Source: Climacium dendroides
Taxonomy: Eukaryota > Streptophyta > Bryopsida > Hypnales > Climaciaceae
Length of the DNA stretch: 64,000 bases
NCBI GenBank assembly: GCA_950106755.1
Contig: OX467090.1
Coordinates: forward strand, 7,812,001 to 7,876,000
Direction: 5' to 3'
Shown: piece by piece, positions 1,667-43,564 of the stretch
How the letters are laid out: each line of letters begins with the position of its first letter
Position numbering within the stretch: position 1 is the first letter of the stretch
The notes under the pieces: generated by a model
Told to the model about the DNA's origin: nothing
The model's input: only the letters and a program-made list of their open reading frames with translations
The model's database searches: none
Position numbers and translations under genes: made by a program

Positions 1667-1690
1667 CAAGGTTGTCTCGGACGTACGTCC
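1659..1690. repeat. Element A left terminus with 8-bp target duplication
   Basis: TTTTCCTC at 1659-1666 is repeated exactly at 14048-14055, giving an 8-bp target-site duplication. The element starts at 1667 with CAAGGTTGTC followed by GGACG motifs. The left ends of B (16597) and C (42632) read CAGGGTTGTC and then the same ACG..CGTCC..CGAAAT..GTCCAAAAT order, so the three ends are homologous. An 8-bp duplication with CAGGG-type ends is the signature of the hAT superfamily. Confidence 0.93.
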
Positions 1691-1965
1691 ATCACGAAAT
1701 CGCGTCCAAAATCCGGACGTCCGGACGTTCGTCGTCCAGGCGTCATGGACGCGGCCAGACTGTGGTCGGTCGGCGTCCAGCGGTTGGTCGAATGGTCGTG
1801 GGAGCAGTCGGGCAACCAGCGGAGCGGTCGGGCGTGACGTCGCAGCGGTCGGGGGGACGTCCGACGGAGCGGTCGGGCGGACCGCCAGTCCGCAAGTTCG
1901 GGAGCAGACGGACCGTCCAATCGAACGCCGTCCGCAGGTTCGGGGTAGGTTCGCGTTGTCCGGGG
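1680..1965. repeat. GGACG array, left end of A
   Basis: Dense GGACGT / GGTCGGGCG / GGCGGAC motifs give strong GC richness in an otherwise AT-rich element. The array lies between the terminus and the fusion-gene promoter, so it could serve both as subterminal transposase-binding sites and as an upstream promoter element. Open frames in it on both strands are low-complexity artefacts. Confidence 0.85.
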
Positions 1966-2007
1966 TAGATTCGGGAAGACAAGTTTTAGGTTTGGGTGCG
2001 GACGGCT

Positions 2008-2215
2008 ATATGAGGGGACGGCCAAGGCATTTTTCCTCACTTCAACTCTCCTCCTTGGAAAACAACACCACATCGGATGTGCTACTGTTGCCTCACCGCG
2101 CCAGTTGCTCCTATGTGGTAGAGAGTTGGGGTTATACATCTTTGATTATACCGGAGGGGTTTTGAATCGGTCATTTTCACACGGTTGAAGAGAAGAATCA
2201 AGGCATCAAGTAGCT
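2008..2215 (+). promoter_or_regulatory. Promoter and leader of the A fusion gene
   Basis: A TATATGA box (2008-2014) sits directly after the GGACG array. The following 130 bases, ending near GTTGCTCCTATGTGG, match the minus-strand leader of the RING gene in B (28935-29059), which also has a TATA-like box at the array edge. Retention of this block in two divergent elements, in opposite orientations, supports a real promoter module. The first ATG is at 2216. Confidence 0.7.
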
Positions 2216-3470
2216 ATGGAAGAAAAGGGCGGCATTAAAGGTGAAAGCAGCAAGAGATCGAAACAAAAAGGAGCTCGTCACGAGCTCCGTCTTGACATTT
2301 TAAAGGATGAGAACATTTTAGCAGAGCCTGAGTGGGAGAAGGTGGTCGATGAATACTGGACTTCCAAGTTGTGCAAGAAATATGTGAAGATGTATCACAT
2401 TGGGAAGTTGTGGCCTAAAGAATTACATACTGGTCACACTCGGGAGTTTTCTTTTAAACCCGCAAGTTGTCTCAGCCCTCATTTTGTCCATCGTTCCGTA
2501 GAGGTGTGGCGGGCTCTCTTCGGGGACAAATCGATGAGCAAGGGTAGAATTAACTACACCATAGCAAGCATGGTGTATACAGAATTGAAGTTGGCTCGCA
2601 AGGTGGATTGGAGTACGTACCCCGAGACAATAGAAACACTGCTTGTGCTTCCTGATGGCCAGAAAGATATTCCCGATACGTTTGTTTCAAAGGGACAACT
2701 TCTTCAAATGGTTGAAGGCAATGCTACTTTACAATGGCCAAGGCAGAAATGACAACATGCAGAGGTCGCAACGTCCAACGAATAACGATCCTCCACTCGC
2801 TCCATGCTCATTGTTGAACGGTGGAAGTGGTAGTACTACTCTGGGGGGTTCAGCGAGTTTTCTACCTACATTGCAAGCTTCCAACATTCAAGAAGAAACT
2901 GTGAAGCGGAAATTCACTAGTTTAGAGTGTACTAGTGATGGGGAAGATGAGACATTGGAATCAATGTTCAAGAGCATAGCAAGTCGCCCACCACAATGTT
3001 CTCAAAGACTAGAGGACATGAAACTGCGATCTCTGAATGAAATAACAGCGGTCGCTTGCCAACGGAGGCAACAAGCAAAAGAAGCAATGGTAGAAGAATC
3101 CGCTAAACCTAAGAAGAAACGAGTGATGGAGCCATTTGCTATCTCCCCAAGGAAGAAAGTACATGGAGGAAGAATCCCCTTGGATACACGACTATCCCTT
3201 CCAACTCTTCCCGCAAGGAAAGGACGATTGGCCAGTGGTCTTTGAGAACACATCCTCGATAAGAATTTCTTACGGAGGAAGGATGATCCAAACATAGGCA
3301 AGGGGAAGAAAGCTTCTACATCTACGGAAATAAGAGGAAAAGAGAAAGAAAAGTTATTGGCTTCATCAAATGATGAAGACAATACTTTCGACAATGAAGA
3401 CGACGGATGGATATCAAGAGACTATAGTAGTGGGGCAGAGGTAAAAGGAGATAGTGATTATCATCCTTAG
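2216..3470 (+). pseudogene. KLWP-module / transposase-tail fusion protein, decayed
   Basis: The N-terminal 178 codons (2216-2752) hold a Lys-rich start, HELR.DIL, W.SKLCKKYVKMYHIGKLWP, HTREFSFKP, HFVHRSVEVW and ARKVDW. I call this the KLWP module. It recurs in the B RING protein (28780-28241) and, more distantly, at the N-termini of the Gly/Tyr-rich proteins. A frameshift near 2700-2750 leads into a second part (frame of 2643-3245) with CSLLNGGSGSTTLGGS, DGEDETLESM and KKRVMEPFAIS, then a TGA at 3243 and an acidic end GDSDYHP. This second part matches the C-terminal tail of the hAT transposase in B. The function is unknown; nucleic-acid or transposase interaction is inference. Confidence 0.72.
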
Positions 3471-3855
3471 GAATTGAATCTTTCATTCTTAGAACGGGTT
3501 AGATTAGAATACGTTACATAGATAGTTCTTCAAATCTTTATGATTTGAATTTGGAAGACTTTATGAACGCAGGAGAAATGAAGTTTGACATTTGACACAC
3601 ATCGCTCTATAATAGGAATTTGCGTGTTTATTTTGAAAAATATAATAAACCTTTTTTATTCATTATCTTTGGTTGAATGGTTGAATAAGAAATTGAAGAA
3701 GTCTTCACTGCATGTATTTTGGTTATTCATTCTCCATGTACAAAATAAATAAATCAGATAATTTCTTGGGAAGCGTTAGAAATAATGAACCTTAGAAAGA
3801 AAGCTTGCATAGAAACTGAAATCTGTAAATACCAAATTACAAAATTGAAGATCGT
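3471..3855. other. 3' flank of fusion gene, no further gene seen
   Basis: AT-rich sequence after the stop codon. It has AATAAA-like strings around 3640-3650 and 3742-3750 that could act in polyadenylation. I see no coding region. Confidence 0.4.
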
Positions 3856-3859
3856 GGTT

Positions 3860-4240
3860 GGCAGAATGGCGGGGGCACAACGGCAGCACTGCAGCAGACT
3901 CTCTGACCGCGTGGAAGGCCGTGGATGGGCCGACCGCAGGTCTGTAGCAGACCGTCCACGAGAGAAAGAGAAGAGAGGCAGAGGCCGCGGACTGGCCGAC
4001 CGGGCCTACCGCAGGTTTAACGACGGTCCGACCGGCGACCACAGCGGACGGGGCCGACTGATGGTTCGCAACGGACTGTCCTACCACGCGAATGGGACGA
4101 CCGCACCAGACGGGGCCAACCGATGGTCCGTAGTGGACTGTCGGACCGCGCGGATGGGCCGACCGCGCCGAACGGGGCCAACCGATGGTCCGCAACGGAC
4201 TATCCGACTGCACGGATCGGCCAACCGCAGCGGCCGCATA
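3860..4240. repeat. GC-rich array with 62-bp tandem unit in A
   Basis: A unit of about 62 bp containing AACCGATGGTCCG..GGACTGT and GGATGGGCCGACCGC is repeated roughly three times between 4056 and 4235, with looser copies upstream. It differs in unit from the promoter arrays but shares GGACGG/CCGACC words. It lies behind the fusion gene and no recognisable gene follows it. Overlapping frames here are artefacts of repeat periodicity. Confidence 0.75.
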
Positions 4241-4249
4241 AAGGTGACC

Positions 4250-7200
4250 CAAATGATTAAGAGGTCATCTGCCATTCGGGAAACTGGGACTTACTATGAT
4301 TCTTGTCTTCAGGTCTCAGGTCTAAGGTTCGATCACTTGAGTTTATGCGGTGGTATGAGGCTTGGTTTCAACTTCCAACAACCAATTCCCATTTCTCAAA
4401 AATGGGTGATCTATTCATTCTTTGTGGAAAAGGGGGGGATGATTGGACGAATGAATTGATCCTCTTGCTTAAGTAGATGTTCCTATAAGGTTGGAAGAAG
4501 TGAAAGTTGAATTCCGTTCAAAGATTTTCGTATCACTATTATGATTCAGAAGTCTCCGACCGGAAGGCAAAAATCATCCCTTCCAGCCTTCAGGGAACGT
4601 CAATACCATATTACCATGACATTTTTTTTTTTTGGGGGGGGCGGGAATTTGGTTTAGCAAACTGTACAAATTATACATTTATACATAATTTGGGAATGAA
4701 CAATAACAAAGCTAAAGCCCTTGCCAACGAATCTTGAATGAAACCTACCACTAGAAAATGCAAAGAGTAAATTACTTAAATATTTTTCGATTTCAGGGCT
4801 ACAGTTTTTCACGGCCAGTCGGCTATGTCACCATGTAGCATTCTTTACAGAATTACAATGCATATATTTATATGGTCAAACTATAAATGGAACCGGTTTT
4901 AAATGAAAACAAGGTTTCATATAGCGGAGAAAGCTCTATGTGAAATCCCTACATAAGTACATTTGTATTCTTTGTAATTTGAAACCTCCAACCAAATTGT
5001 TCCGCAAAATATTTAATCCAAGCTGGAAAGCTCAAATGAATGAAGAAACACCTATACTATTTACTATCTCACCTTGCATGTTGATTTGTTTGTTGGCCAG
5101 AAATTCTGCATTTTAGATCTACATGACTCAAGATTTATTAATAAGGTATTTATAACTATTTTATAGCTTATCTAATTTCTTGGCAATTTTAATATTTGGG
5201 ATTTTTAGGACTATTTAGTACCCGAATAAACAAATTTGAATCTGAGATTTGAAGAAGATGATTTTGTAGCAAACTTAAAGGAATCCTAAAAATATTGAAT
5301 TTTATGTGGTGTACAAGTTCACTAAATGAACTTTTTTATTAATGACTTTTGAAACGCGTAATGTTCTTTGAATGGTTCTTTTCATAAATGACCATCTTCA
5401 GAAAATTGTTACAAATGGGATTTTTATAATATTTGTATAGTTTTTCCCTTTTTTTTTTAATTACATGTTAGAGCATATATTTTCTTGAAATTGGAACTAT
5501 TCTAGAACTTTCTCCTACTTATAGAATTTTTTGGTGGTTTTATTTTTGGTAATTGCCTTCATCTTGAAAGTGAATACATTGGACATTACTTGGACCTATT
5601 TCTTCAATGTTTTTTGAATATTTTTCTTTTAAATTTTGAAAGTATTCTACAAAAAAATCATGAGTATTGGACGAAGCACAACAAAATTATCAAATGTTTC
5701 TTGCAGTCACCTAGATCCATTAGAAATTAGAAAAAATTTAGAATTTTCATTGTATTTTATTTACATTTCAATGTCAAAAGGCTCCCAATTCTATATTTGG
5801 AATGATGAACTAAGTGACTAGGAAGATGTTTCATCTAAATCAAGATGTTTTATCCAAAATGATTCTGGAGAGTGCAAACCTTTAATGACCAATTTGATGA
5901 AATGGAGGTAACCAATAAACCAATATGTACACAAACAATAGAAGCAAAAATATACAAGATTTAGAATATTATTCTTTTGTTAAATTACTAACAACAACTT
6001 CAAGGGGCTCTAACTCTAATTCCTCAAGTTGACTTCACATAAATACCTAAATATGACCTTTAAACAGAAACCGAATTATTTAATGCATTATTGCATTGAG
6101 ATTTGTAACTTTAAAGGACAGTTTGTTTAATTGTTTAGATGCAATTTTATGAAATGGAATTGGAGTTGGAGATGGAATAAGGTCATTCTATATTTAACTA
6201 TAGTGAAAAGTGATTGAATGAGTATTTTACCATAGTTTGTAACTTTGTATAATCATACTTTCTTAGTTTTTGTTGGATTTTATTCACAATTGAAGGGTGA
6301 TTTTAAGAAATACTCATATTATTTTAGAGTCATGTATTGAGCGCTTGCAAGTTGCAATGTCTTTTTTTATAACTTTTCATACTTGATTTTTTTTGAGTTT
6401 ACTAAAGTTTTGACTACTAAAAGCAATACTTTTACTCTTTTAGAAACAAGCTTTTACAAGTTCTAAAGTTTATAGTTCAGATTTTAAGTATTTCACAAAG
6501 AATCATTATTTTATGATTATATGCATTAGAAAATGACTACAAACTTCACTTTTCTTCAATTACATATTTTTAAAATTTACCATGAAAAAATGAAAATTTA
6601 GTCTCTCTCCCTCTCTATATATTTATAGTTTGTACTCAAAGTACTTATAAGATGTAAGAATGAGTCAATTGCAAACATATTTGATGAAGAGAAATATCGA
6701 AATTCTAAAAGTGAGTAGTCATCAAAATTATGGATAGGATTCATGGTTTTTAGGTAACCCGGGTGGGTGGGAGGGACATCCCTAGAAGGGCCTTTCCTAT
6801 AAATAACAAACAAATCATAATCTAAAAAGTATTTCAAAGATCATGGATAGTACAAAGTAGAATGGAGGTCACTCACATCCAACTATTAAAGTATCAAATC
6901 CATCAAGTCAATAAAATCTTTAGCAAAGATGTATTGTACATAGGATTAATTCCATCAAGTCAATAAAATCTTTAGTAAAGATATATTGTACATAGGATCA
7001 ATCAAGTCAACGTAATAAAATCCTTTACAAAGAAATTTTTATGTACATCAAGTCAATAAAATCTTTTGAAAAGAAATATTAAAAAAGGATCAAATCAAGA
7101 ACATCTTTAGATCCTTTCTAAGTAAAAATACCAATAAGACATGTCAATAAATTATAGACAAATCATGTAGTGCTCTAAATCCAAAAACACATCATGATTT

Positions 7201-8330
7201 AGAACCCAAAGAGAATAGAAATTTGTTGTCAAGGTCTTGGAAAAAAGCTGCCATGTAGATTTTTACCAAAGAGGCTGTGAACCTCACCTATCCCCATGAC
7301 AAACCAAACATCGGAATGTTAGTAAATCGTAGACAAGGTGTCTTCAGTTCACAGCAGCGTGTTATAGCAGTCACAAAAGCAGAAATCAAACATGAAAACT
7401 CAAATCACAAGAAACTTAATTAACAAATTCTAGTCTAGCATCCTATGCAGCATAGAAGACCTGTGTAGACGCCATCTCTAGTCCTCACACCAACTACTCG
7501 CAGTCCTTTCCAAAGCTAGCCAACAACAGCAAGTTGTGAGGGCTTGTTGAATTGGTCCAGACCTTTATACCCAAGTAGAGGTATAGGTAAGCTATTGCTA
7601 GAGTAGTCCATACCTAGGTCCTCCACGAAACCCCCAAGGAAATTTACCTTGAGTTTCTAGAAACTACGGCCTAGCTTCCAAGAGATTATAGCTAGGGACC
7701 TAGGTATACAGGTCAAATATCTTCTAGAAGGCTCCCAAAATTAGTGGAAATCAACCGTTTGTGAATACGCGTTGACCCAGACCTCTTCTAGAAACTAATA
7801 GCCACCACTCGTTGAACTGGTATGGAACTTCCCATCATGTGTCAGCCCATCACAAGTGTGAACACCAAGACTAGAAAGGAGACTAATGGTCTCAACTTTG
7901 CCACATGTCATCCTACATAGAAGATTCTAATTTTAATCCCTATGTAAGGTTAAAACTTAACCAAGAAAAAATTATTATCTAGGTGAAGTATGACAATATT
8001 TACCCTATGGCAAGGAAAAAATCCCTTTATTGTAAATCAATCTTATTGGTGTTAGGAAAAAAATCCTATAGCTATAAATTTCAAAAATTCATGGAAAGTA
8101 GACATACGGGAGGGTGGGAGGGGCTTCAATGAACCCATAAATCATATGGTAAAAATCTGAAATTTTCACCAAGGATTATAAACAACAAAAATGGTGCAAA
8201 ATTGAAAACCATTTAACTTGTAGTGGAATTTTTATAAGGGCCAACCCCTCATAACCATCCCTTAATCAAAGGAGTATAATTACTAATTCCTTTGATAGAA
8301 CTAGGCTCTATAGGTACAAACTATGGCATA
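4250..8330. other. AT-rich interior of A without recognisable genes
   Basis: About 4 kb of AT-rich DNA. All open frames are short and none shows a recognisable domain. It contains a poly-T/poly-G run (4621-4645) and a tandem repeat (6895-7100) listed separately. It has no clear counterpart in B or C that I could match by eye. Confidence 0.5.
6895..7100. repeat. Imperfect tandem repeat, unit about 60 bp
   Basis: The phrase CATCAAGTCAATAAAATC followed by TTTAG.AAAGAT.TATTGTACATAGGAT recurs three to four times with drift (near 6900, 6955, 7010 and 7050). It is noncoding. Confidence 0.75.
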
Positions 8331-8338
8331 ATATAGGG

Positions 8339-8366
8339 TTTAGGGTTTAGGGTTTAGGGTTTAGGG
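8339..8366 (+). repeat. Interstitial telomeric repeat (TTTAGGG)4
   Basis: Four perfect tandem copies of the plant telomere heptamer, preceded by a partial copy. It lies inside element A, about 200 bp upstream of the array of the Gly/Tyr-rich gene. Short telomere-like blocks in plants can be repair scars or telo-box promoter motifs. Confidence 0.95.
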
Positions 8367-8534
8367 CATGGAGTTATTTTTCAAGTTTCACATTGAAGGG
8401 GCAAAATTCCCGCCTTCAGTTTTCAAAGTTTTTATGTCCTTACCTGAAGTTCATGACGAACTAATGGTCTAACAGGCTGCCAGCTCACTCCTTTGGATTC
8501 TCTACTCACAAATAACTAAGTTTGGAGAATCCAC

Positions 8535-8830
8535 AGGTCGTGGGCTGCCTGGCCGTCCGCTCGGCGGACACTGCGCCAACCAAGCGATCGGCGAAAGCAG
8601 CGACCCGTCTGTTGAGCGGATGGGCCGACGGCCGATCGGTCGGGGCAGATGAAGTCCGTCCGTCCGCCCATCCACCCGTCCGCTCGGCGGACGGCCCGAC
8701 GGCCAAGCGGTCGGTGCGTCCGTCCAACTCAGCCGTCCGTACGTCTCTGTCGACCGTGAGATGGGAGATGTGGATTCACGCTGTCCGTCCAATCTTGCCG
8801 TCCGACCCTCAAGCCGACAACGACGTCCAC
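8535..8830. repeat. GGACG array upstream of A Gly/Tyr-rich gene
   Basis: Interleaved CGTCCGCTCGGCGGACGG words on both strands, ending 12 bp before the TATA box at 8843. The position equals that of the array at 31535-31740 in B and 46875-47060 in C. Confidence 0.85.
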
Positions 8831-8842
8831 CTCGTCGGTCGG

Positions 8843-9048
8843 TATAAAAAGCGGAGTGGACGGCTCATTCCGCACAATTGTTTCCCTTGCGGAGTGGGTG
8901 ATCTAGCGGCTATTGGTCTCTGTGTGCGCCTTCCGCCTTGGTGTGTGAACAATTGTGAATGAATGAGTGGTATTCACTAATTATTATAATTTGAAACCAC
9001 TACACATTAATCATTCTAACATTGAGGTCATTTATAGAGAAGGGTACT
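8843..9048 (+). promoter_or_regulatory. TATA box and leader of A Gly/Tyr-rich gene
   Basis: TATAAAAA lies at 8843-8850. The next 100 bases (GGACGGCTCATTCCGCACAA, then a CTTGCGGAGTGGG block and GTGTGAACAA.TGTGAATGAAT) are conserved at 31742-31865 in B and 47063-47190 in C. This is the best-conserved noncoding block shared by the three elements and should mark the transcription start region. Confidence 0.82.
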
Positions 9049-10245
9049 ATGCCTCGCAAAGGAATTCCGTTTCTTTCCAATTCTTCGAAGAAAAGTTCGA
9101 AGGGGAAACCACAAGAACTAGATTGGGATGTTTACTTTGATGAATTCAATGTGGCAAAGGAGGGGTGGGAGTACGAGTCCGACAAAGTGTGGACTTGTAT
9201 AATGTGCAAGAAATATGTGACCATGTCACACATAGCCAAACTGTGACCAACAAATGACAGTTTGGAGAAGCAAGTGAGACGGTGGGAAGACCCTATGAAG
9301 ACGTGTATGAGTAAACACTTTGTAGAGAGATACGAAGAAATTTGGGCAGCTTCAAATCCAGGTCCCTCGAAGCCTACCATCATGAACTATTCTACCATGA
9401 CAATGGTTTGGGCGGAGATTGTACTCCAGAAAGACGTTGATTGGCATACAGTTATAGGGATGAATAAAGAGACGAAGATGACGTGTCATTCAACTGTGGT
9501 GTTCACTAACTAGCGTGGCGAAAGTGATTGCATGCCGGCTTGGTCGAACCGAGGTCAATTTGGGTGCCCAAGTTGGCCTATGCAGGATGCAGAGGACAGT
9601 GATGCTGACGATGATGAAGAACCAGCTAAACAGTTGCCACCTCCACCTCCACCTCCGGAGAGGCACGAATGCCGAGAAGAACGCGAAGACATAGAATACG
9701 AGAATCAAATGCGGGAAGCATTGAGGAGGAGTGTCAAGGATCAAGGCCGACCTCGTGGATATCACACTTCACCTCGTCGTGAACGTGATGTATATGGCTC
9801 ACGACATGGAGGAAGTAGTTCACACTATAGCAACAACCCTCGAGATGGTGGTCCAAACGTAGAAGGAGGCTATAGAACTACGACCTATACGGACTACGGT
9901 GGTCTTTCACATGGCGGCCCTCAATATTACCCAGGAACAAGGGGACCTCATGGAAACACCAATTATACAGATTATGGTGGTTCGGAACAAGGTGGCTCGC
10001 GAAATTATCCGGGAACAAGAGGACATGATTTGTATGGGCCTCATGGAAGTTCTTACTACACTGGTTCAAGCCATGGAGGGACTGGAGGCTCACATGAATA
10101 TGCTTCAGTTCCACCTCCAACTTTTGGAGGTCCTTATTACGAAAATTATGGACAAGGGTGACAATCAAGCGGATATGGGCCATATGGTGGCTCCGGTTCT
10201 ATGCCTCAAAGTCAAAATCATGATAGTAGTTCTGATTCTGAATGA
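9049..10245 (+). pseudogene. Gly/Tyr-rich low-complexity protein, A copy (decayed)
   Basis: One frame of 399 codons from ATG 9049 to TGA 10243, interrupted by in-frame stops at 9244 (TGA), 9511 (TAG) and 10159 (TGA). The B copy has Trp at the first two and Gly at the third, so the stops look like point changes. Layout: a KLWP-like module (W.C..C.KYV.MSHIAKL, HFVERYEEIW, NYSTMTMVWAEIVL, VDW), an acidic patch, a PPPPPP run, a charged segment, then Gly/Tyr/Ser repeats (YTDYGG.., YYPGTRG, SSYYTGSS) and a DSSSDSE tail. Such tails resemble prion-like or condensate-forming domains. The role is unknown. Confidence 0.78.
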
Positions 10246-11920
10246 AGTATAGTGTTATTTTGTAGAAAAAAACAAGGTGCCATTATGTAGTTATGGACTT
10301 TGTTTTTTAATGTGGTTTTTAGTGTAATGCATTGTCAATTTGTCATTTGCCATTTGGAAACAATGCAATAGTTGTAGGAATGTAAGTATATTCGAACACG
10401 TGAGATGTATGAAGAACTTGTTTTAGCCCCCAAAATGAAAGTGGTACAGGCTATAAGACTATTTTATAATATAATAAAATTATTTGTTTTTTACCTTGTA
10501 GAGTAAGTAGAGTTCCATACTATCACTCCAATATGAATGGTTAATTGTTGCAAGTGTTGAGTATGTGAATGATGTGGTGTAATGTATTTGAACATCGGAA
10601 GTTACGTATTTTGGTCATTTGTAATGAATGCGTACTGAAAACCATGAAAGTTACGTGCTTGTATGTAGAATTGCAAATGTACGGTTGTTTTTTGAGACAA
10701 AATGGTGTGACCAAATCATTTTTATAAAACCTTTGTCGAATAACTCAACACCTTTTGGTATGCACCAAAAGAATTTTCTTTATGTAATTAGCTTTGATGT
10801 TGTACTTCCCAAATGCTATTTTAAGTATTGGACCTTCACGACAACAATTCAAGACTTATTCTTCTTCAGGTATTTAACACTAGAAGAGTAAAAACAACAA
10901 GATGTCTTGTTGTTGAAATTCATTGATGAAATGAATTCGAGTTCTCTGGATATTGGATAGGCAAGAATATAATGTACAAGTAAAAAATTAAAAATTAAAA
11001 ATTAAAACAAGTTGCAATTATTTTCCTACCTACTATGACCTACTAGGCTACTACCTAGTGCAGTAGTGCCTACACTCCCCCCCGTCCCTTGTTTTGAGCA
11101 ATTTAGGTCATAACTTCTATTCCCGGTCACTGATTGTGGAAAAAATGAGGTCTCCATTATCCCATATAGCTTAATAAGCTTATCAATTTTTCCATCTTCA
11201 GAAAAAGTTTCAAAAAATCACGACAAAATTTCAAGTTGTAAGTACCTACCTAATAACCCCTAAACCCTCGAAGGGACCCTAAGCCCTTTACAAGTGAACC
11301 TTCAACTCACAATTAGGCACTCACATACAATCATACATTCATACACGATGTTTCCTTCGGTCCTTTAGTTGCCTTCCATCGTCATATCAATTATAGAGAC
11401 ATAGAGGTAAGTAAACGCTTACCATTTTTTATATCGTCATTGACATTATTATAATGAACATCTTCAATCACATTTACTATACCACACAAATGAAGACAAG
11501 GACTTGTCAACCTAACAATCAGTGAATCATTGAATCATCAATCATCAATTAAAAATTGAATGAATAAAGAATTGCAAATTATTTCATATAATGATTTCAA
11601 GATTTCCAATTTTCCATCCAAACATACGATGACAAATGGCGTAAAGACTTCCAAGTTCTCCAAAATCATTGTAAATTAAAACATGCTCATTGATTACAAA
11701 TGCTGAGATGCACCTTGCTGTAAAACAACATTCACAATCAATCCAATCATTGGTGATGACACTGAGGTATATCATCCGTACATACTGTACTACTATGTAA
11801 TTGACATGTAACTTAGTATATGTCTTTGCCTCTATGAATAGTACATACTATAAACACCTATAGGCTATAGTTAATTACTTATATATGATATATTAATATC
11901 ATTAAAGACTTAAACTACAG
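10246..11920. other. AT-rich spacer between convergent genes in A
   Basis: This lies between the ends of the Gly/Tyr-rich gene (plus) and the kinase gene (minus). It contains AATAAA-like signals (for example around 10475) and AAAATTAAAAATTAAAAATT-type simple sequence near 10985. No coding region is recognised. Confidence 0.45.
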
Positions 11921-13405: not shown

Positions 13406-13560
13406 CTTGATGAATGTCGCACGATTCAAGAAAAAAAATGGCAAAGGTCCCCCCAAGATTTCACCTTTACCCTCCCGAGGAGAGGAGGCAATAGGGCCCA
13501 AAGGCACTAAGCTTCTCCGCTCTCTCTTGCAAGCAAGGGGGAAGGTAAAAGTGAGAGGCG
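13406..13560 (-). promoter_or_regulatory. Leader of A kinase-like gene
   Basis: On the minus strand a CCTCTCACTTTTACCTTCCC / CTTGCAAGAGAGAGCGGAG block precedes the ATG. The same block precedes the B kinase gene (34175-34220). The TATA position (CATATAAG in B at 34150) reads CATACAAA here, suggesting a decayed box. Confidence 0.6.
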
Positions 13561-14040
13561 GACGGCTCGACCGCCTCTTTTGTATGAGGCGGACGGCTGA
13601 TCGGGTGCCCCGTTGGGTCCGTCCGATTGGCCGTCCGATCGGACTGCCGACCGGTCGGACGGGCCACCCGATCAGCCGACCGATCGGTCTGCCCCATCTG
13701 CCCCGTCCGTCTGCTCGGTCGGCCCCGTCCGACTCGTCCGCGCGATTGGCCCCATCCTCCCTGTCCTCCCCATCCGTCCGTGCGGTCGGCTTCGACCGCC
13801 CCGTGGTCCGCGTCCGTCCGGTCGGTCTGCCCCGTCTGCCCTATCCGCCCCGTGCTCCGCGTCCATCCGCTCGGTCGGCCCTGTCTGCTCCGTCTTCGCC
13901 GTCCGACCGCTCGGTCGGCTCACTGAACCGGCCGACCGCCCGTCCACTGGACGGACGCGAGTCCAAAATTTCTATGTCCCCGAACGCTCGAAAACCTGTG
14001 GACGCGGACGTTGAAAGTCCGGGCGTCCCAACGTCCGTGC
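13560..14040. repeat. GGACG array, right end of A
   Basis: About 480 bp of CGTCCGnnCGGTCGG words. It serves at once as the right subterminal array and as the array upstream of the minus-strand kinase gene. Five overlapping open frames run through it on both strands; they are low-complexity artefacts. Confidence 0.85.
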
Positions 14041-14055
14041 AACCCTGTTTTCCTC
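14025..14055. repeat. Element A right terminus with target duplication
   Basis: The element ends GTGCAACCCTG at 14047; its reverse complement starts CAGGGTTGCACGGACG, the inverted counterpart of the left end. It is followed by TTTTCCTC (14048-14055), identical to the left flank. Confidence 0.93.
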
Positions 14056-15567: not shown

Positions 15568-15644
15568 ATCAGAAATCCTCTTCCGGTTCTTCGACCTTCA
15601 ATCACACTTCTTCTTCTTTCCCTTGTCTCTCTTCTTACTTCTCC

Positions 15645-24470: not shown

Positions 24471-24524
24471 CTCCTAACTTGTTGAATGTTCTATGCCTCA
24501 GAAGTAACCATTGCCAACGGTCAG

Positions 24525-28100: not shown

Positions 28101-28780
28101 GGAGTCAAAAACACCTCTCCCTCCACATCGTCCACAAGACAAGTGCTTCCTTTTGTGGGGTCCCCCATACAAGCCGGTTCTACCGCCATTTTCTTTCCAT
28201 TCAGCACTTCCATACGACGCACTTGGATTTCAAGAGGGATCTAAATTGATTCCACAGCATCCTCTAATGCTTTCTTTTTTTCACTTGCTTTAGGAAGTTG
28301 CGCCTTCAGAACAAACATATCAGGGATATGTTTCTGATGTCTGCCAATCCCAAGTGGCAATGTCGCTACCGTAAGATACATACTCCAATCCACTCGACGG
28401 CCTAGTATGAGTTCAGCGTAAACCATGCCTGCCAAACTGTAGTTAAATTTGCCCTTGCTCATAGCCTTCTCCGGAAATAAGGCCTTCCACACCTCCATCA
28501 AACGATGCACAAAATGATCATTGAGGCAATTCAATGGTTTAAAACAATATTCACGGGTGTGAAGAGGGTGACACTCTCGAGGCCACAACTTCCCAATGTG
28601 ATACATTTTCACGTATTTGCAGCACAATTTAGAGGTCCAATACTCCACATCCTCTTTTTCCCAACCCATCTCAGCCTTGATGTTGACGTCATCCAAAATG
28701 TCAAACCGTAGCTCATGACCAACACCCTTCGGCTTTGACTTCTTCTTGCCTTCAGTTGCAGCACTACTTACCCCCGCCAT
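25154..28780 (-). pseudogene. KLWP-module / coiled-coil / RING protein, decayed
   Basis: A single frame of 1,209 codons from ATG 28780, with in-frame stops at 28241, 27836, 26729, about 26584 and 25466 but no frameshift. Residues 1-180 are the KLWP module (HELRFDIL, YWTSKLCCKYVKMYHIGKLWP, HTREYCFKP, VDWS). Residues 340-680 contain heptad-like coiled coils (NDNLKAMNENLKAMNEKL). Near residues 856-896 (about 26093-26215) is a RING-type cluster C-x2-C...H-x2-H-x2-C...C-x2-C (CSLCQGC..CCHTFHMFC..CPEC). A basic KKKNKRK tract follows near the end. RING proteins are often E3 ubiquitin ligases; that role here is inference. Confidence 0.75.
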
Positions 28781-29059
28781 GACTGCTTGAGTGTCGAGTA
28801 CTCACTTGCAATTTTAGAATGGAAATTTCCAATATATAATCCCCATTCTCTCAAAATATATAATGTGCTTCATTGTCTCCAAACGTATGTAAGTAACCAA
28901 GGACCAAAATCCAATGTAGTATGATCAAAATATGACCCCCACTCTTCACCACATAGGAGCAACTAGCGCATGAAGCAATAGTAGCACATCCAACATGGCA
29001 GTGATTCCCAAATGGAAGAGTGAAAGTGAGGAAATGTATGTTGGCCGTCCGCCAATATA
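28781..29059 (-). promoter_or_regulatory. Promoter and leader of the B RING gene
   Basis: The minus strand has a TATATTGG box (29059-29052) at the array edge and then a leader matching that of the A fusion gene (2008-2130), including GTTGCTCCTATGTGG. Confidence 0.65.
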
Positions 29060-29415
29060 CCCGTCCGCTCCCAGACCTAAAAGAGGCCTGGGAGCGAACC
29101 TATCCCGGGGACGGACAGACGGAGCTGCCCCATCCACCGTCGAAGCGGATGGGCGGCCCAGCCGTCCAGGTCCGCTCGGCGGACGGGTGGACGGAGCTGC
29201 CCCGGCCGCCGCCGAAGCGGACGGCCGGCCCAGTCGTCCAGGTCCGCCTAGCGGACGAGCGGACGAAGCTGCCCCGTCCGCCGACGAAGCGACTGGCTGG
29301 CCCGGTCCAGGTCCGCCCGGCGGACGGGCGAACGAAGTTGCCATGTCCGCCGACGAAGCAGCCGGCGGACGGGCGGACAAAGCTGCCCCGTCCGCCTCGT
29401 CCGCCTAGCCCGTCG
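29040..29415. repeat. GGACG array upstream of the B RING gene
   Basis: A unit of about 57-66 bp (GACGAAGCTGCCCCGTCCGC...GGTCCGCCCGGCGGAC) repeats about five times. A shortened version is at 43565-43835 in C, fused to the transposase tail. Confidence 0.85.
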
Positions 29416-31530
29416 CCTATTATTTTGAGGCGTCCAAATTTTTTCTAATTTGGCATGAAACCTAGGATTCTTCTCGTCCGCCTTTACTTACTGTTAGTTT
29501 TTTTGGGTCAATTAAAGTTTCAACATCCTATGCTTTTCTCATTAACCCAGAAAATAAGAAATAGACAAGTTATAATCAGATTTTAAATAATCATTTAGAG
29601 TTCTTTGAAGTTTACAGTAAGACCCTAAACCCTAGAACCCTAGAACCCTCAACTCTTAGTCTCCTACATTTCAAATTACGCCATTGTTTTGAGCAAATTG
29701 TAAATTTGTAATATTCATTTGAAATTGTATGCATACAAATTTTAACTAGATATAAAGGATATTATTTATTTATTTATTTTTTCATCATGTAGGATATTTC
29801 AAAGGGAAAGAAAAAAACAAGAACATGATCAATATTAGTGATGAAGTGAAATGTTATAATTCCCAATTGACCAAATTGAGATGGTGCTACAATCACAACA
29901 ATTACTTCAAGGGTTTTGGTTTTGGTTCTAGTTTTGAACCTCATGGACAATTTCCATTGACTTCAAGGTGTTTTGTACATATAGACTTATAGAGAAGCCA
30001 AAAATGTATATAACTTATACATGTCACACACTGCAACGCCATGTTTGTACTGTATTTTGTAATGCCCTTTTTTGATTAGGATTGTTTTAAAAGTAAGGGT
30101 ATACAAAGAGTGTAAGACTTCACAACATTTCTGAAATTAGTAGAACTGTGAAATCCTTACTCATTGTGAAAAGCATTATAATCTTCTAATCTATAAAAGA
30201 TATGTTTTTTTGTTTTTTGTTTTGTTTTGTTATATATATTTTTTATTTTTTATTTTTTATTTTTTTTCTTGGAGAATTTGCAACGTGAAGCAATAAAAAA
30301 AATTTAGTTTCTATTTGTATAATGTATAAGTTCTTCTTTTATCTAAGGCTGGGTTTATACTGTGCCTAAGGCTAGATGAAAGTCTGGCCGGATTTGCCTT
30401 CGATCCATTCTTCAATCCGGCCCCAGTTTTTTCCATCCGGCCCTACTTAATCTAAAGTCTAAACCCCTTGGGCCGGATTTTCAATGCATGTGCTCTTCAA
30501 TTTTATCAAGGCTCAATTAAAAAACGTCAATAAAAATATGCATGTTTATCTTTTATTTCTTTTTTAATTAAAAACAAATATTTTTTCTTTTTTTTCATTT
30601 TTCTTTTTGTTTCTATACATTTTATTTCTAAAATACAAAAAGAAGTTTATTTATTTATTAATTAAAAATAAAATAAAAATTTAATATTTTGGTTTTCCTC
30701 TTACATAGAATATGCATTTGTAATCAACATGTTTAATGCTAAAACATAGGTACTTTATTGTAGTCACTTAGATGATTTTCCTTTAAAATTAAATAAAGTA
30801 AATCCATAAGGGAGTTGCTCTAAGAACACCCGTGCTCTAAGAGTGATCATGACGGAGAGGTACATTTTGCTTTAGTGAATGTACTAACACATTTTAGGAC
30901 ATGGTCACTTTTAATGACCGTTGCCTTTCAACTTATTCGCCCTCCATAACTAATTACAGAATGATTTAAAAAATACGAAGGAAATCAAGTCACCAAAAAA
31001 ATATGAGGATGAAGGGCCTAACGTGCATTTTAAAATCTACTCTACAATTTTTTAAATGAATCTTTAATGTGGTTTTTTCTCCAAGATTTAGTGTATTTGA
31101 GGCTCATTTCCAAAAGCCCTGAACACTATGAAAGTCAAGTTTGTGATGGAAACTCTTGTACAAAATCTTGAATAAGGAAATCATAATCAATCATTTAGAA
31201 AATTGGATTTTTGATGCTAAAGTTAGATTTAGAATAGACTTATATATATATATATATACTACTAAGAATAGCAACTTGGTTAAGTATTATTAGACTTAGA
31301 ATCTCTATTCTCATAGATAATTTTCTTTCTTATTTAGTATTTAGGAAGCTTTAATTCATTTAATTAAGATTTGTTATGAGATTTCAATTTGTTTTCATCA
31401 AATTTTTTTGAGATTTCAACTTATGTCCTATTATAAATTCTGAAAATTTCACTACATGCCATATTTATTTTATTTTTTAACGAATTTGACTCGAGCATAG
31501 GGTATTCCAAGTGATGAACTTCAATGTGTA
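29416..31530. other. AT-rich spacer between divergent RING and Gly/Tyr-rich genes
   Basis: Nearly the whole block recurs at 43840-46870 in C. It contains degenerate telomere-like words (CCCTAAACCCTAGAACCC at 29622-29650), a (TA)n tract (31241-31258) and poly-A/T runs. Around 31080-31140 a stretch is an inverted copy of 36575-36635, near the right end. A 54-codon frame at 29827 (MINISDEV...) is partly kept in C at 44248, but neighbouring noncoding DNA is equally similar, so I do not call it a gene. Confidence 0.5.
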
Positions 31531-31534
31531 TAAG

Positions 31535-31740
31535 AACGGCCCGTTCGCCGTCTGCTCGTCCGCCGTCCACCTGTCCGCCCGTCTGCCGTCCGCCGTCCGT
31601 CCGCGGGCTCCGTCCGATGCAGTCGTCTGCAGTCCGGCGAGGCCGTGCGATTGGACACACCGGGGCATATTGCCCGTCCGATCTGGCGGTCGGCCCGTCC
31701 GCCCGTCAGATTTGGGCAGTGATGTCAGCATCGGCGGACG
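31535..31740. repeat. GGACG array upstream of B Gly/Tyr-rich gene
   Basis: CGTCCGCCGTCC-type words, C-rich on the coding strand, ending at the TATA box (31742). The conserved counterpart in A is 8535-8830. Confidence 0.85.
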
Positions 31741-31741
31741 G

Positions 31742-31962
31742 TATAAAGAGGGGCGCGGACGGCCCATTCCGCGTTGTTGTTGCCCTTGTGGAGTGGGCAG
31801 ATCCAACGCCAATTGGTATCTGTGAGCCCCTTCCGACTTGGAGCGTGAACAACTGTGAATGAATTAACTTAATTTTTGTAATCTCTTCATCACCTTCTCA
31901 ATTATAGAAATTGTAAACTTCTCACTCAAACATTGCATTCGGTGTGGAAAAGAAGGATTACC
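31742..31962 (+). promoter_or_regulatory. TATA box and leader of B Gly/Tyr-rich gene
   Basis: TATAAAGAGG starts at 31742, followed by GCGGACGGCCCATTCCGCG and the GAGTGGGC..AT..TGTGAGCCCC leader conserved in A and C. The ATG at 31963 lies in a good context (ACCATGGC). Confidence 0.82.
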
Positions 31963-33069
31963 ATGGCTCCAAAAGGATTTCCCAATCCGCTGAAGAAGAG
32001 TACAAAGGGAAAATCACAAGACATGGATTGGGACGCCTACTTCAACCACTTTTGTGTGGCTGAAGAGGGATGGCAATACGAGCCCAAAGTAGTATGGACT
32101 TGCACAACGTGCCGAGAGTATGTGAAAATGTCACACATTGCGAAACTCTGGCCAGTAGATAACACGGCTGTATTAGAGAGACAAGTGAGACGGTAGGAAG
32201 GTCCCATGAACACTTGCAAGAGTGAACATTTCAAGCAGAGATACGAGGAGATTTGGGCATCTTGCGGTCTAGGTGCTTCCAAACCAAATATCATGAACTA
32301 TTCCACCATGGCAATGATTTGGGCAGAGATTGTACTCCAGAAAGATGTGGATTGGCGTACGGTGCCTGCAAAGGACAAGAAGACCAAATTGAGCTGTGAC
32401 AAAGCGGTGATAAACACCAATTGGGTTGGCCCAAGCGATTGCATGCCAGAGTGGTCTAATCGGGGTCAATTTGGATTTCCTCCGGAACCATTGCCAGATG
32501 CAGAGGACAATGATGATGATGACGAAGAAGACTTACCACCTCCACCTCCACTTCCACAAAGGCACGTACGTCGAGAAGAGCACGAAGACTTGGACTTCCA
32601 AAATCAATTGCGAGAGGCAACAAGAAATAGTATTTTGGATCAAGGTCGCCCGCGTCAACAACGGTCACCACCTCGTCATGATTGTGATGTGCGTTGCCCG
32701 CAATATGGAGGAGGAAGTTTGCATTTTAGCCCTGGCCCCCATGATGACTTCCAAAACATACGAGGAAGCCATGGAAGCACAAGGTTCACGGACTACGGTG
32801 GATCTCAATATGATGGGTCGCAATTCTATCCGGGGACGGGAGGGCCGGACTCATATGGGCCTCGTGGAAGCTCATACTACACCGGCTCAAGCGAACGAGG
32901 AACAAGAGGGTCCGAGGCAAATGCATCACCTCCTCCACCTCCACCATTTGGAGGTCCATACTTCTCCAATTACGGACAAGGAGGAGGGTTTGGCGGATAT
33001 GGGCGATGTGGTGGCTTCGGTCCCACACCCGAAGGTCGAAATGACGATAGTAGTTCGGATTCAGAATAG
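31963..33069 (+). pseudogene. Gly/Tyr-rich low-complexity protein, B copy (one stop)
   Basis: 369 codons in one frame with a single in-frame TAG at about 32194 in place of Trp; otherwise it looks intact. The N-terminal KLWP-like module runs from WTCTTCREYVKMSHIAKLWP to NYSTMAMIWAEIVLQKDVDW (roughly residues 30-145). Then come an acidic run (DNDDDDEED), PPPPPLP, charged RREEHEDLDFQNQLREA, and a Gly/Ser/Tyr tail (FTDYGGSQYDG, PRGSSYYTGSS, GGGFGGYGRCGGFG) ending DSSSDSE. About 60 percent of residues are shared with the A copy, including the tail, which suggests selection on a low-complexity protein. If the TAG is read through or recently acquired, it may still act. Confidence 0.75.
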
Positions 33070-33269
33070 AGTATAATGTAGTTTAACTATTTAAGGGTAG
33101 AGTAGAAGATGTCTTTTGACTTATTCGGAGGTTATGGATTTACTATTATTGTTTAAATGTATTTTGGTGACCACTTTTGTGACCATTAGTGGTCAATGAT
33201 GTCACTATTTAAAATTTTGAACATGCACATCTATTGAACATGTTTAGTTGTAGTATCAAAAATCTCTTT

Positions 33270-33860
33270 TTGGAAATGCTTGACAGTGTTTTTTCTTTTT
33301 TAGATTTAGTGCAAGGGTACCGAATGCAATGTTGACTTTCTGTATTCTTTACCTGCTCTTGGAAGTTGGAAATGAGATTGAAATGCAATTAGTTCTGGAG
33401 AATAAATTAGAATCCAAATTCATTTGGAAGAATTGTATAATAGTATTGTGGATTTTGATTAGCCCTAATGTAATTGGGCTTATACACATTAAGCCTTCCA
33501 ATTTTTTGTGTCATGAAGTTCATAGGTTTGACTTGCAAAAAATATTTGAACTCTTTTTTGCAATTTGAACACCCTCATAAGTAAACATTATAATTTTTAA
33601 CTCCATAAGGGATATTGTTGTGCTTTCTTTTTTTCCATAATGTCTAGCATGTCTAGTTTGAATTTGTACAGTTCAAAACTCGAAATTCCAAGAAAATGAT
33701 AAATGTAATGAAAATATTGACATTTCTTTAGAAGTAAAAATTTCAAGAAATTGAAGGAAGTTGAGAAGAAGCCTTAGGTCTATTTTTTTAATTATTAGGC
33801 ATTGAAATGCCCAAATGCCCAATTCCTCCCAAACAAGAAGACCTACATGAAGCTTATTGA
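33270..33860. repeat. 3' module downstream of B Gly/Tyr-rich gene
   Basis: AT-rich noncoding DNA that is a diverged direct copy of 36530-37080, the 3' flank of the kinase gene: shared GCAAGGGTACC..TGCAAT.TTGACTTT, GATATTGTTGTGCTTTCTTT and GTCTAGTTTGAATTTGTA. This suggests the gene cassettes were duplicated with their 3' flanks. Confidence 0.65.
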
Positions 33861-33904
33861 ATGAAAAGGGGGAAAAATCACCCTAAAAATGAGACGGTAG
33901 AAAT

Positions 33905-34185
33905 GAAGCGGACGATCTAAAAATCGCCCCCTCCGCACCGTCCGATCACGCAGACTGTCCGTCCGCCCGATCGGACGGCCTCTGTTCGACCGTGCGGACT
34001 GGACGAGGCATCCGCCAACCCTAGAGCGTCCGATCGGACGGCCAGTCCATCCACCCGATCGGATGGACCCGACGGGGCGACCGATTGGCCATCCGCCCGA
34101 TCGGACGGCCTCCGTCCGTTGTAGGACTGGAATGAGGCCGTCCGCCTCATATAAGACAAGCGGACGGACCGTCCGCTCTCACTTT
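33905..34185. repeat. GGACG array upstream of B kinase-like gene
   Basis: GCCCGATCGGACGGCC words in both orientations; a TATAAG box is embedded at 34150-34155. The downstream CTCTCACTTTTGCCTTCCCC and CATGCAAGAGAGAGCGGAGA block is shared with the A kinase leader. Confidence 0.83.
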
Positions 34186-34339
34186 TGCCTTCCCCCTTGC
34201 ATGCAAGAGAGAGCGGAGAGCTGGTGGTTTGACCTCCAATGGCTCCTTTCTTTGGGTAGGTAAGAGTCTAATATTTGGGGTAACTCTTGCCAAATTTTTT
34301 ATAAAACTTTGACGTTCATCATTCTACCGGGTTATCAAC
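34150..34339 (+). promoter_or_regulatory. TATA box and leader of B kinase-like gene
   Basis: TATAAG lies at 34150-34155 within the array edge, followed by the leader block shared with A and ATG 34340 (CAACATGCC). Confidence 0.7.
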
Positions 34340-35826
34340 ATGCCGAGGGCGAAGAAGGCTTCCAAGGAGCCGAAGGGAAAAGAAGAAGCCCCCTCTATTC
34401 AGTGGACAAGGGAGAATCCCTCGGAGAGTTGCAAAGCATTCTTAATCGAATTGATTGTGAAGTTTTATGAGACAGAGACTACAGTGTCTCTTAACACTAA
34501 ATATATGCGATATGAAGAGGACTGCATCGAGAAATTCTTCGTGGATATGAGGCAGAGGATGTTGGACGCCTTGCACGTACCACAGTGGATTGATGAAACG
34601 GAGAAGAAGAATTTCCCCAAATTTCTTGACAGCAAGGTGCATGATGCATTATGGAATGCTTCGGTCATTTTGGATAAATATTGGAGGAAGAAACACGAAA
34701 ATGATGAAGCCTTCGAGCATGTCATTATGAAAGCGGATTTATTCACCAAAAGGTGCCAACCATTTAAGAGGAGGCAGAATAGAGCAGGGTCAATTGGTTG
34801 GTGGACGAGCAAGCCTGGAATGGACCAAGCACAAATTACACGTCGCCTTCTAATAGTCCTTCCGGAAGCGGCCATGGTGATTCCCGTAAATAACAAAATC
34901 ATGCGGGGTGGCTATGCTACAATTCGAAGAGTGCGAATAGAAGGATGTGTGGAGATTCATCCATCATGGGAGTTTGCAGCAAAGATGTCTCTCCAAGAAG
35001 GTGAACGACCTGCTTTTGCAAAGATGGAACACAATACTAAGACTATGGCAGTAAAGATTCCGCATGCTGGAGTGATACGTTTTTTTGCAGTGCATTCCAA
35101 AAAGAATGAAGGATATTCATTTTGGTGGAACGGCGGTACATTCCGTGAAATGATGCGTCGGGATGACGACTATCTAGACAACATAGCCCTTCGAGTGCTG
35201 TATGAGCCGCGTATAACAGAAGAAGAAATCATTGCTGCTAAAAATCTGAAGCGATTTAGAGCCAAATGCGTGGAGCTTGCATGGGCATTACTGCACATCA
35301 TGAATGCAGTGCACACCGCTGGACATCTCCACAACGACATTTCTCCGGACAACATCATGTTTCATTTTCCTGAAGATGAGTCCCGGGTTTACATTGGAGT
35401 TTGTGATTGGGAGATGACTACAGTGTTGAGTGAGCCCATGAAGTCGTTGTATACATTCACATCAACGCTGAAAAGGACGAAGCTATAAAGAGGAGGTGGT
35501 GGGTGGATCCCAGTATTACTTATGTACACAAAAGAGATGCGGATGTGCAAAACATCCCTTCTCTTTCCATGCAATCCGAGCAATATGCTGTTGCTAAATT
35601 AGCTGAACGGATCAGTAGGCAGTGCATGTCGGAGGCATATCACAAATTGCAGCGTGAATCAAGTAGCTCACATGTCAAGTACCTCCATCCACAATTTGCA
35701 CAGGTGTTTGATACTTACTTGAAATGCGTTCAGAACAAAGAGAGTACTTTGGCACAAGTCATCTTCCGTTTTAGTACTTCATTCAACTGGCCTATTCCGG
35801 ATGAACACTTCCGTGGTTCATATTGA
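34340..35826 (+). pseudogene. Divergent protein kinase-like gene, B copy (one frameshift)
   Basis: Open for 382 codons from ATG 34340, then a one-base loss near 35476 (relative to A) moves to the frame of 35503-35826, ending after WPIPDEHF; total about 495 codons. Residues 1-165 are basic and helical. Kinase-like motifs are Gly-loop-like RGGYATIRRV (189-198), FAAK (Lys 215), HLHNDISPDNIMFHF with Asp 333 and Asn 338, and CDWE (Asp 356) for DFG. The A copy has DWG here, so Glu is a B change. The key Lys, Asp, Asn and Asp remain, so catalysis in intact relatives is possible. FunK1-like kinases are the nearest pattern I can name. Targets unknown. Confidence 0.76.
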
Positions 35827-37385
35827 AGTTCAAGAATAGTTTATATAAGTATATAGGCTGGTAGTATGCATAGATGCCAAGTAGTATGTATGCGAATTAC
35901 ATAGTTGCATAGCATATGTGCACCATTTTGATTTTTTAAGACCAATGAATGCCAATGTAGTTGGATTTTTATGTGCCTTTGTAATTGACGAGGATATTTT
36001 AATTGATAATAATTTTTAAAGTGTGAATTGTCCCTATCTTTTGTCATTGTTGGTTTGCAATTTTGCATAGAAAAGTCTAAAACCCTGCAATTATGGAAAT
36101 TGTGATTTTTAAGTTGGTATTTGCAAGATTGGGAAGTTTTTGTTTTAAATTGTATGGACTTCCAATTCTTCAATTTGCCATGTATGGTTGAAGATATTCA
36201 ATTGGACAATGTATTATGTATAATTGTAAATTGTCTTCTAGATTCTAGAAGCATGGTTTTTTGTTTGGTATCAATGGTGTGTTGTTAATTTCTTGAATGC
36301 AATGGGTTTGTCGGCTTCATTAAGATGTTAAAAAAAAATAGTAATTACCCCCAAAATGCTTGAGGTACCAAAATATTAAATATGGTGTTTGCAAAACTTA
36401 GAAGTTCAGTAAAACCTAACTATTTTTCATCATTTTAGTGAGGTAATAATTTTGGGAAATTCTTTTTGAAGTCTACTTTTGGCTCCAAAAGTCCGATCTT
36501 GCAATTAAAGGACAATGATTTTTCTAAAAGAGATATTATGCAAGGGTACCTTGTGCAATCTTGACTTTTCTTTTGTGTTAAGAGCTTTTGGAAATGAGCC
36601 TCAAATACAGTAGATCTTGGAGGAAAATTCATATTGGAAATTCATATTAAAAAATTATAGAGTAAATTTTGCAAAGTTGTAAATTGATTGGGGTAGTGCA
36701 AGTTTGGCCCATTAACCTCATATTCTTTCATTCTTTGGGTCCCCAACATTTTAGATTTGCCTTGCCAAAAAGGCTTCAACTTTTTTTTGTGATTTTAACA
36801 GCATCATTGTCAAATGTTATAATCTTTCACTGTACAAGTGATATTGTTGTGCTTTCTTTTCCTATGCAATCTCTAACAAGTCTAGTTTGAATTTGTATGG
36901 TTGCAATTCCAAAAAAATTGATACATCTTACCAAAATGTGGGCTCTTTGTTCAATTTAGAGCAAATTAAAAGAAGTTTAAATTTGAAAATAAGGCTTCGA
37001 CATGTAGGGGTTACAACATCCTATGGTTATTTGGATGATTGAATTTGTTTGAACCATCAACCATTGTTTTCTTGGGCCAATTGAAGGCCCAAATGCCTAA
37101 AAAAAAATAGACTGCACCAAATCTATAGGTTAAATTTGAAGAAAAATTGGATGATAATGCCAAATTGCTTGAATTTGAAAGAAAAAAAATTGGATGAAAT
37201 TGCACACATCAAATGTAACTCATCTAAATATGTGGATGAAAAGATAATTCTATCCAAAATATAAATGAATACTAAAAACTTTAGTAACATTATTTTGTCA
37301 TATATTGCCACTTTAGCAATTCTTCAAAAATTGGAAAAAAACCCATGGTTTCATCCCTACACGGAAGTTTACCCCATTTTCCGCC
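35827..37385. other. AT-rich right-hand region of B
   Basis: Noncoding. Bases 36300-37385 are nearly identical to 47195-48280 in C. They contain the 3' module also seen at 33270-33860. No gene recognised. Confidence 0.5.
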
Positions 37386-37389
37386 AGAT

Positions 37390-37760
37390 GCCCCGATCAG
37401 ACGACCCCACACTGACTCATTTGCCCCGTCCGCCTCCCCGTTTGCCTCCCCATCTGCCTCCTCGTCTGCCTCCCCATCCGCCCTCCCGTCCAGCTCCTCG
37501 TCCGCCCTCCCGTCCAGCTCCTCGTCCGTCCTCCCCGTCCAGCTCCCCATCCGCCCTCCTGTCCGCCTCCCCGTCCGCCCTCCCGTCCAGCTCCCCATCC
37601 GCCCTCTCGTTCAGCTCCCCGTCTGCCCTCCTGTCCGCCTCCCCGTCCGCCCCGTCCGCTGGACGGTCAGAACGTCCTATGTCGGCGGACGTTCAGGAAC
37701 CAGCGGACGTAGACGTTGGACGTCCGAACGTCCGGACGTCCATGTAACCCTGAAATCAAC
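37390..37760. repeat. GGACG array and right terminus of B with target duplication
   Basis: CCCGTCCGCCCTCCCGTCCA-type array (37420-37665), then GGACGTCCATGTAACCCTG ending at 37752. Its reverse complement starts CAGGGTTACATGGACG. AAATCAAC follows at 37753-37760, matching 16589-16596. Confidence 0.93.
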
Positions 37761-43555: not shown

Positions 43556-43564
43556 GAATAGGCC

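Follow-up and report, generated by a model that had tools for sequence, protein, structure and literature searches.

Three related transposons in the window

The window analyzed here, a stretch of 64,000 nucleotides from the moss Climacium dendroides (C39:7812001-7876000 of a 412.6-Mb assembly, to which all genome-wide counts refer), contains three related DNA transposons of the hAT superfamily, termed A, B and C. All three are defective: B carries in-frame stops and an insertion, and A and C have lost most of their transposase gene. As proposed in an earlier note made from the sequence alone, A (12.4 kb) and B (21.2 kb) are flanked by exact 8-bp duplications, found on both sides as TTTTCCTC for A (1659..1666 and 14048-14055, no strand) and AAATCAAC for B (16589..16596 and 37753-37760, no strand); of the 26 end pairs tried within the window, no others match exactly over 8 bp. 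The homology of the inverted ends is likewise confirmed, the alignment of A and B giving CARGGTT[GA] followed by subterminal sequence rich in GGACGTCC. Both elements lie within a retrotransposon, in which domains of a reverse transcriptase and of gag are recognized.

Element B (16597..37752, + strand, 21,156 bp) is a decayed and interrupted copy of what is below called family B, and retains four genes. The first, on the - strand (17277..24218), encodes a hAT transposase with DUF659 and Dimer_Tnp_hAT domains; the frame starting at 24218, in which the earlier note had recognized the transposase, matches PF04937 (E 2.9e-24) and PF05699 (E 8.9e-9), and it is broken by an insertion at 17558-21117 and by three in-frame stops up to 22113. 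The second gene (25157..28786, - strand), here termed KCR, combines a KLWP module, a coiled coil and a RING domain. The KLWP, coiled-coil and RING open reading frames (ORFs) of B form one frame, 28786-25157 on the - strand, broken by in-frame stops. On the + strand follow a KLWP/Gly-Tyr-rich gene (31963..33069) with one in-frame stop and a kinase-like gene (34340..35826) with a frameshift near 35467. The 3.56-kb sequence inserted later in the transposase gene (17558..21117, - strand), with TTAT on both sides and boundaries set by alignment to an uninterrupted copy and by reading the letters, is foreign to the transposon and accounts for the 21.2 kb of B; the description of these elements as giant was overstated, their native length being about 17 kb. 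The insertion itself holds two ORFs, one of which (19722-20723) has no Pfam match.

Element A (1667..14047, + strand, 12,381 bp, ends CAAGGTTG...CAACCCTG) is an internal-deletion derivative of family A and corresponds to the full-length copy described below, but lacks about 6.7 kb in which most of KCR and most of the transposase gene lay. Owing to this deletion, the N-terminal KLWP part of KCR (2216..2731, + strand), recognized from the sequence and from alignment to the full-length copy, is truncated and fused to a remnant of the C-terminal tail of the transposase (2731..3469, + strand, end SSGAEVKGDSDYHP), which is seen both in the full-length-copy alignment and in the transposase alignment. 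The genes reported earlier as common to A and B (kinase-like, Gly/Tyr-rich and KLWP) are real. In A, the KLWP/Gly-Tyr-rich gene (9049..10245, + strand) has in-frame stops where the full-length copy has an open 398-aa frame, and the kinase-like gene (11979..13405, - strand) lies in broken pieces but is uninterrupted in the full-length copy. A telomere-like run of TTTAGGG, the plant-type repeat, is found inside A at 8333-8367.

Element C (42632..48795, + strand), found by scanning the window for all CARGGTT-type ends, is flanked by the duplication GGGATGCA/GGGATGCG, with one mismatch. It aligns to B in separated blocks and is hence an internal-deletion derivative of family B. Its target has an uninterrupted inverted paralogue within the window, to which the joined flanks of C align without a gap, providing a natural empty site.

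A four-gene element in two families

A full-length copy of family A is found at C41:27151787-27168479 (16,693 bp, GACCTCAC on both sides), with the gene order KCR, transposase, Gly/Tyr-rich gene and an inward-pointing kinase-like gene; in this copy the Gly/Tyr-rich and kinase frames are open, and the KCR and transposase frames are interrupted. Family B (about 17.5 kb) has this gene set too, with the KCR-transposase block and the kinase gene inverted relative to the ends; in element B, nucleotide identity to family A is about 66-78% in matching blocks. The arrangement is highly regular: the gap between KCR and transposase measures 910-1,018 bp in all 19 listed pairs, KCR lies 8.3-9.3 kb from the right end in 12/12 cases and 5.6-5.9 kb from the kinase gene in four cases out of five, the exception being 7.8 kb, and copy length is 16.1-17.4 kb in family A (n=10) and 17.1-20.2 kb in family B (n=12, ten of them at 17.1-18.0 kb).

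This near-fixed gene set, spacing and length indicate a multi-gene hAT element and not variable cargo of the Starship type. The cargo-carrying hAT lineage of the earlier note therefore stands as far as a large gene-carrying family with autonomous-type and non-autonomous members is concerned, but B cannot be autonomous and the likeness to Starship cargo does not hold. That the elements take up and move varying host genes would fit their length, their gene content and the plausible host-type functions of the extra genes, but we regard it as very improbable: the same genes occur in every gene-carrying copy read, at constant spacing and length, the gene set is common to two families diverged by a dS (synonymous divergence) of about 1, and the encoded enzyme belongs to the hAT transposases and not to the tyrosine recombinases.

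Genome-wide copies and target sites

Genome-wide counts were taken from the best-ranked candidates and are thus lower bounds: the best 40 of 186 for the left end of A, 40 of 166 for its right end, 40 of 329 for the right end of B, 41 of 1,117 for the transposase (full-length relatives), 80 of 782 for the kinase and 40 of 1,329 for KCR. The end is exact in 18 of 20 left-end loci of A, the printed flanks of which differ from one another. Exact 8-bp duplications were found at 24 of the 29 end pairs tested, 11/13 in family A (9/11 pairs of one set, the C41 copy and A itself) and 13/16 in family B (12/15 loci and B itself). Some of these were read by eye, the end base being off pattern (C40:18583244, C27:1709770, C15:156612 and C1:10819542 in family A; L022, L024, L027 and L029 in family B), and the pair C35:19321111, with its left side only, was left out of the count. 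The search with the element ends suggested in the earlier note thus yields at least 22 full-length copies with exact duplications outside the window. It is almost certainly not the case that the gene set arose through nesting in this window alone, with other repeats interrupting a simple hAT element. Nested insertions do occur, as shown by 17558-21117 in B and by a family-A element beside one transposase gene, but the gene set recurs at independent loci in both families, with the 8-bp duplications outside the whole.

The earlier note had named two observations that would point to accidental cargo, transposase-only copies and cargo genes outside the ends, and neither was borne out. The RING half of KCR adjoins the transposase gene in 26 of 30 loci; of the other four, one is the site of a family-A insertion and three continue into unmatched sequence. 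For the kinase, matches were split by rank into family A (first 66) and family B (last 14, among which C35:13467552 aligns like the first group), and 45 of the 66 were examined. A right end lies within about 0.7 kb 5' of the gene in 44 of these 45: by coordinates in 25 top-ranked matches (listed right end at 700 bp or less), and by reading the letters of 20 further loci, of which 17 have an exact right end, two have one mismatch and one has none. The locus L073 (C39:28771895-28773499), which lacks a family-A right end, gives the genome's top kinase match (76% identity to P0003) and possibly represents a third family. The KLWP gene is present in 15 of the 20 left-end loci of A, and the remaining five consist of two ends only, 0.6-0.7 kb long. 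These five (L002, L007, L009, L012 and L018) resemble miniature inverted-repeat transposable elements.

hAT elements prefer targets of the form nTnnnnAn. Such targets were found in 14 of 66 sites, against 5.8 expected (p 0.0015), and the A at position 7 is significant by itself (p 0.00013).

The transposase

The full-length transposase relative P0066 matches PF05699 and PF04937 as the protein of B does. The transposase has about 1,127 aa and a long conserved tail, and residues D237, D298 and E614 (P0066 numbering), which we take to be its catalytic triad, are invariant in 16 transposases. Many hAT transposases, though not all, carry an N-terminal BED-type zinc finger. Conserved Cys and His residues occur near the N-terminus here, but the BED profile suggested in the earlier note gave no Pfam match at E<=0.1 for the window pieces or at E<=1 for P0066. 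With exact duplications at 24/29 end pairs, CARGGTT[GA] ends and a PF05699/PF04937 transposase, the element qualifies as a hAT in every decisive feature that was tested.

Protein relatives of the transposase number 31 and are nearly all metagenomic, two Primulina proteins being distant; its profile has no match at E<=1 among sequences of solved structures. In public viral contigs (40 and 56 pattern matches) and in bacterial and archaeal contigs (236), tblastn confirmed no relatives. The transposase P0069 and the KCR protein P0098 each lie on a 17,649-bp contig of the same source, apparently one and the same contig, which suggests that transposase and KCR are linked in another plant too.

The accessory proteins

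The open frame of KCR comprises about 1,215 aa. Six protein relatives were found, and the KCR relative P0097 scores above the Pfam cut-off for zf-RING_2. The KLWP module also forms the N-terminal part of the Gly/Tyr-rich protein, with 28-30% identity and 25 invariant columns in 10 sequences. Open frames of transposase, KCR and kinase each exist in some genomic copies (counted gene by gene, not per copy): internal stops are absent from 6 of 30 transposase loci, 6 of the best 40 KCR copies match over the whole length without a stop, and 32 of the best 80 kinase matches are free of internal stops.

The kinase-like protein weakly resembles protein kinases. Searched against the PDB, its predicted model retrieves protein kinases (best E 3.8e-4), and K215, D333, N338 and D356, presumably the catalytic positions expected of protein kinases, are invariant in 27 kinase-like proteins. 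Among its 64 protein relatives, the named ones come from one metagenome-assembled genome labelled Bacilli and from Ceratodon purpureus, which accounts for two clusters, one of them with 126 sequences. The larger cluster is represented by P0035 (KC19_VG055000), a C. purpureus protein named as a V-chromosome gene, and annotated moss genes of this kind may be transposon genes.

Selection and decay

Between families A and B, the ratio of nonsynonymous to synonymous divergence (dN/dS) is 0.28 for the kinase and for the transposase, 0.37 and 0.25 for the two halves of KCR, and 0.23 for the Gly/Tyr-rich gene (0.16 in its KLWP part), while whole-gene dS is 0.92-1.19 for the four genes. Values of 0.23-0.37 at similar dS imply that the extra genes have been maintained by purifying selection and have diverged alongside the transposase; judged from these sequences, all four genes seem to be of the same age and under the same constraint, as expected had they travelled together. 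It is very unlikely that the extra genes were captured a single time, in the manner of Pack-type elements, and have since been copied along as passive passengers. Capture of genes by transposable elements is common in plants (PMC13317346), and gene-less deletion derivatives still spread, but passengers would not be expected to show a dN/dS like that of the transposase, so many stop-free kinase matches or kinase residues invariant across 27 proteins.

The 30 transposase loci differ by 2.8% on average and by 1.2% in the closest case, and C>T or G>A make up 81% of the counted changes, an excess that probably reflects methylation-driven decay. This also bears on the idea that the genes serve the moss and that the element is tolerated for their sake, to which we give little credence. 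Maintained frames and the many kinase relatives in Ceratodon would agree with it, but copy numbers are high, many copies are decayed, the substitution pattern is the one expected of methylated copies, and none of the 45 kinase genes examined lies outside an element, with one ambiguous case.

Proposed role of the accessory genes

The reading that we favor, with a probability of about 0.78, is that these are multi-gene hAT transposons of about 17 kb in which the transposase moves the element, and KCR, the kinase-like protein and the KLWP/Gly-Tyr-rich protein are helpers that aid mobility or escape from silencing. The three extra genes are thus likely to be the transposon's own and not cargo borrowed from the host, and their products most likely promote mobility or counter silencing. 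The transposase would cut the element out and paste it at 8-bp target sites, and would move the deletion derivatives as well. Through the KLWP module that they have in common, KCR and the Gly/Tyr-rich protein could gather at a single site, probably the blocks rich in GGACG/CGTCC that lie at the ends and before the genes; there, RING protein and kinase might modify the transposase, chromatin or silencing factors. GGACG/CGTCC-type motifs fall within the ends and the 900 bp before genes in 79% of 125 cases in the full-length A copy and in 77% of 212 in B, these masked stretches making up about a quarter of element length; for the kinase gene of the A copy, the wrong flank served as upstream stretch, the true one lying under the right-end mask. 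A more specific version is a tentative proposal that we think less probable than its negation: arrays of GGACG/CGTCC at ends and promoters would be read by the KLWP proteins, which would recruit a RING ubiquitin ligase and a kinase, so that silencing is turned off and transposition timed. If true, this would be the first transposon known to oppose its host through a kinase-ligase pair.

Several observations weigh against the helper reading or some part of it. Five of the 29 end pairs have no exact duplication (C39:28976380, C2:9993455, L028, L032 and, by a single mismatch, L043), T at position 2 of the target is not significant alone (p 0.13), and the kinase match C39:28771895 has no recognizable right end. 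The motif-block test is modest, the observed value being reached by 26 (A copy) and 16 (B) of 1,000 circular shifts, and in the A copy one motif block, near 9 kb, is not followed by a gene. Because deletion derivatives have spread, an element does not require the helpers in cis. The structure search with the KLWP model gave no match at E<=0.001 (best E 5.3), which makes DNA binding by this module a guess. The kinase model is modest as well (mean predicted local distance difference test score, pLDDT, 73; predicted template modelling score, pTM, 0.43; TM-scores of about 0.2-0.3 to its PDB matches), and the Pfam scores of the kinase-like protein fall below cut-offs. Finally, a dS near 1 is close to saturation, and the family-B copies used for three of the genes are decayed.

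Comparison with known systems

Ordinary plant hAT elements are a few kb long and encode a transposase and little else, and hAT elements are textbook one-gene parasites. The moss elements share with plant hATs the DUF659/Dimer_Tnp_hAT transposase, short CARGGTT ends and 8-bp duplications, but differ from them in their length of about 17 kb, in three further conserved genes and in the transposase, which has about 1,127 aa and ends in a long conserved tail. Their ends and target duplications agree with the 8-bp duplications and inverted repeats of 5-27 bp given as typical of hATs in PMC12506042.

The closest functional parallel may be found in the VANDAL elements of Arabidopsis, which belong to the MULE superfamily and are plant DNA transposons with an element-borne anti-silencing gene, VANC (PMC13317346, PMC10398659 and PMC5735166); VANC recognizes short noncoding motifs of related copies (PMC13317346). 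The moss elements resemble them in carrying dedicated accessory genes, the anti-silencing role of which would be analogous, and differ in superfamily and in having kinase and RING genes, neither of which is described for VANDAL in the cited text. Fungal DNA transposons that encode TET/JBP dioxygenases (PMC12730594) likewise possess an enzyme gene besides the transposase, although the enzyme and the hosts are others and there is no fixed four-gene set with kinase and RING.

With the fungal Starships and ToxhAT/ToxTA the moss elements have in common that they are large and gene-bearing. Starships, however, employ a tyrosine recombinase with DUF3435, encoded by their first gene (PMC12506042), which the Pfam scans did not detect in the element genes, and the moss copies show no variable cargo and near-constant spacing and length. 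ToxhAT has been reclassified as a probable Tc1/Mariner element with TA duplications (PMC12506042) and is hence no longer an example of a cargo hAT. The moss element thus appears to work most like transposons with dedicated accessory genes, such as VANDAL/VANC, and not like Starships. As in the earlier note, no match to a described lineage was found in the literature searched; preprints and most subscription journals lay outside that search, and the undescribed status of the lineage is accordingly unproven. The searched text of a 2026 review of gene capture by plant transposable elements contains none of the whole words hAT, moss or bryophyte (PMC13317346).

We thus describe a hAT lineage in which selection has kept a kinase-like protein, a RING protein and two KLWP proteins. 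Present in a moss in high copy number and as two rearranged families, it offers a natural system in which to ask what a cut-and-paste transposon needs beyond its transposase. Should the helpers counter silencing, they would give new access to DNA methylation in plants other than flowering plants.

Other sequences in the window

A search of the window against Rfam gave no match. The sequences on either side of C (37855-42631 and 48796-51592) form a large inverted repeat, 2.8 kb at 97.8% identity, together with an inner inverted pair of 0.8 kb at 95.6% identity. The repeat carries a gag-like ORF of an unassigned family, one copy of which received C, and its ORF at 40388-40753 resembles, by eye, the ORF 19722-20723 of the insertion in B. 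Farther along the window, an ORF on the - strand (61171-62301) encodes a terpene synthase (PF19086, E 4.4e-15), presumably of the microbial-like type known from non-seed plants.

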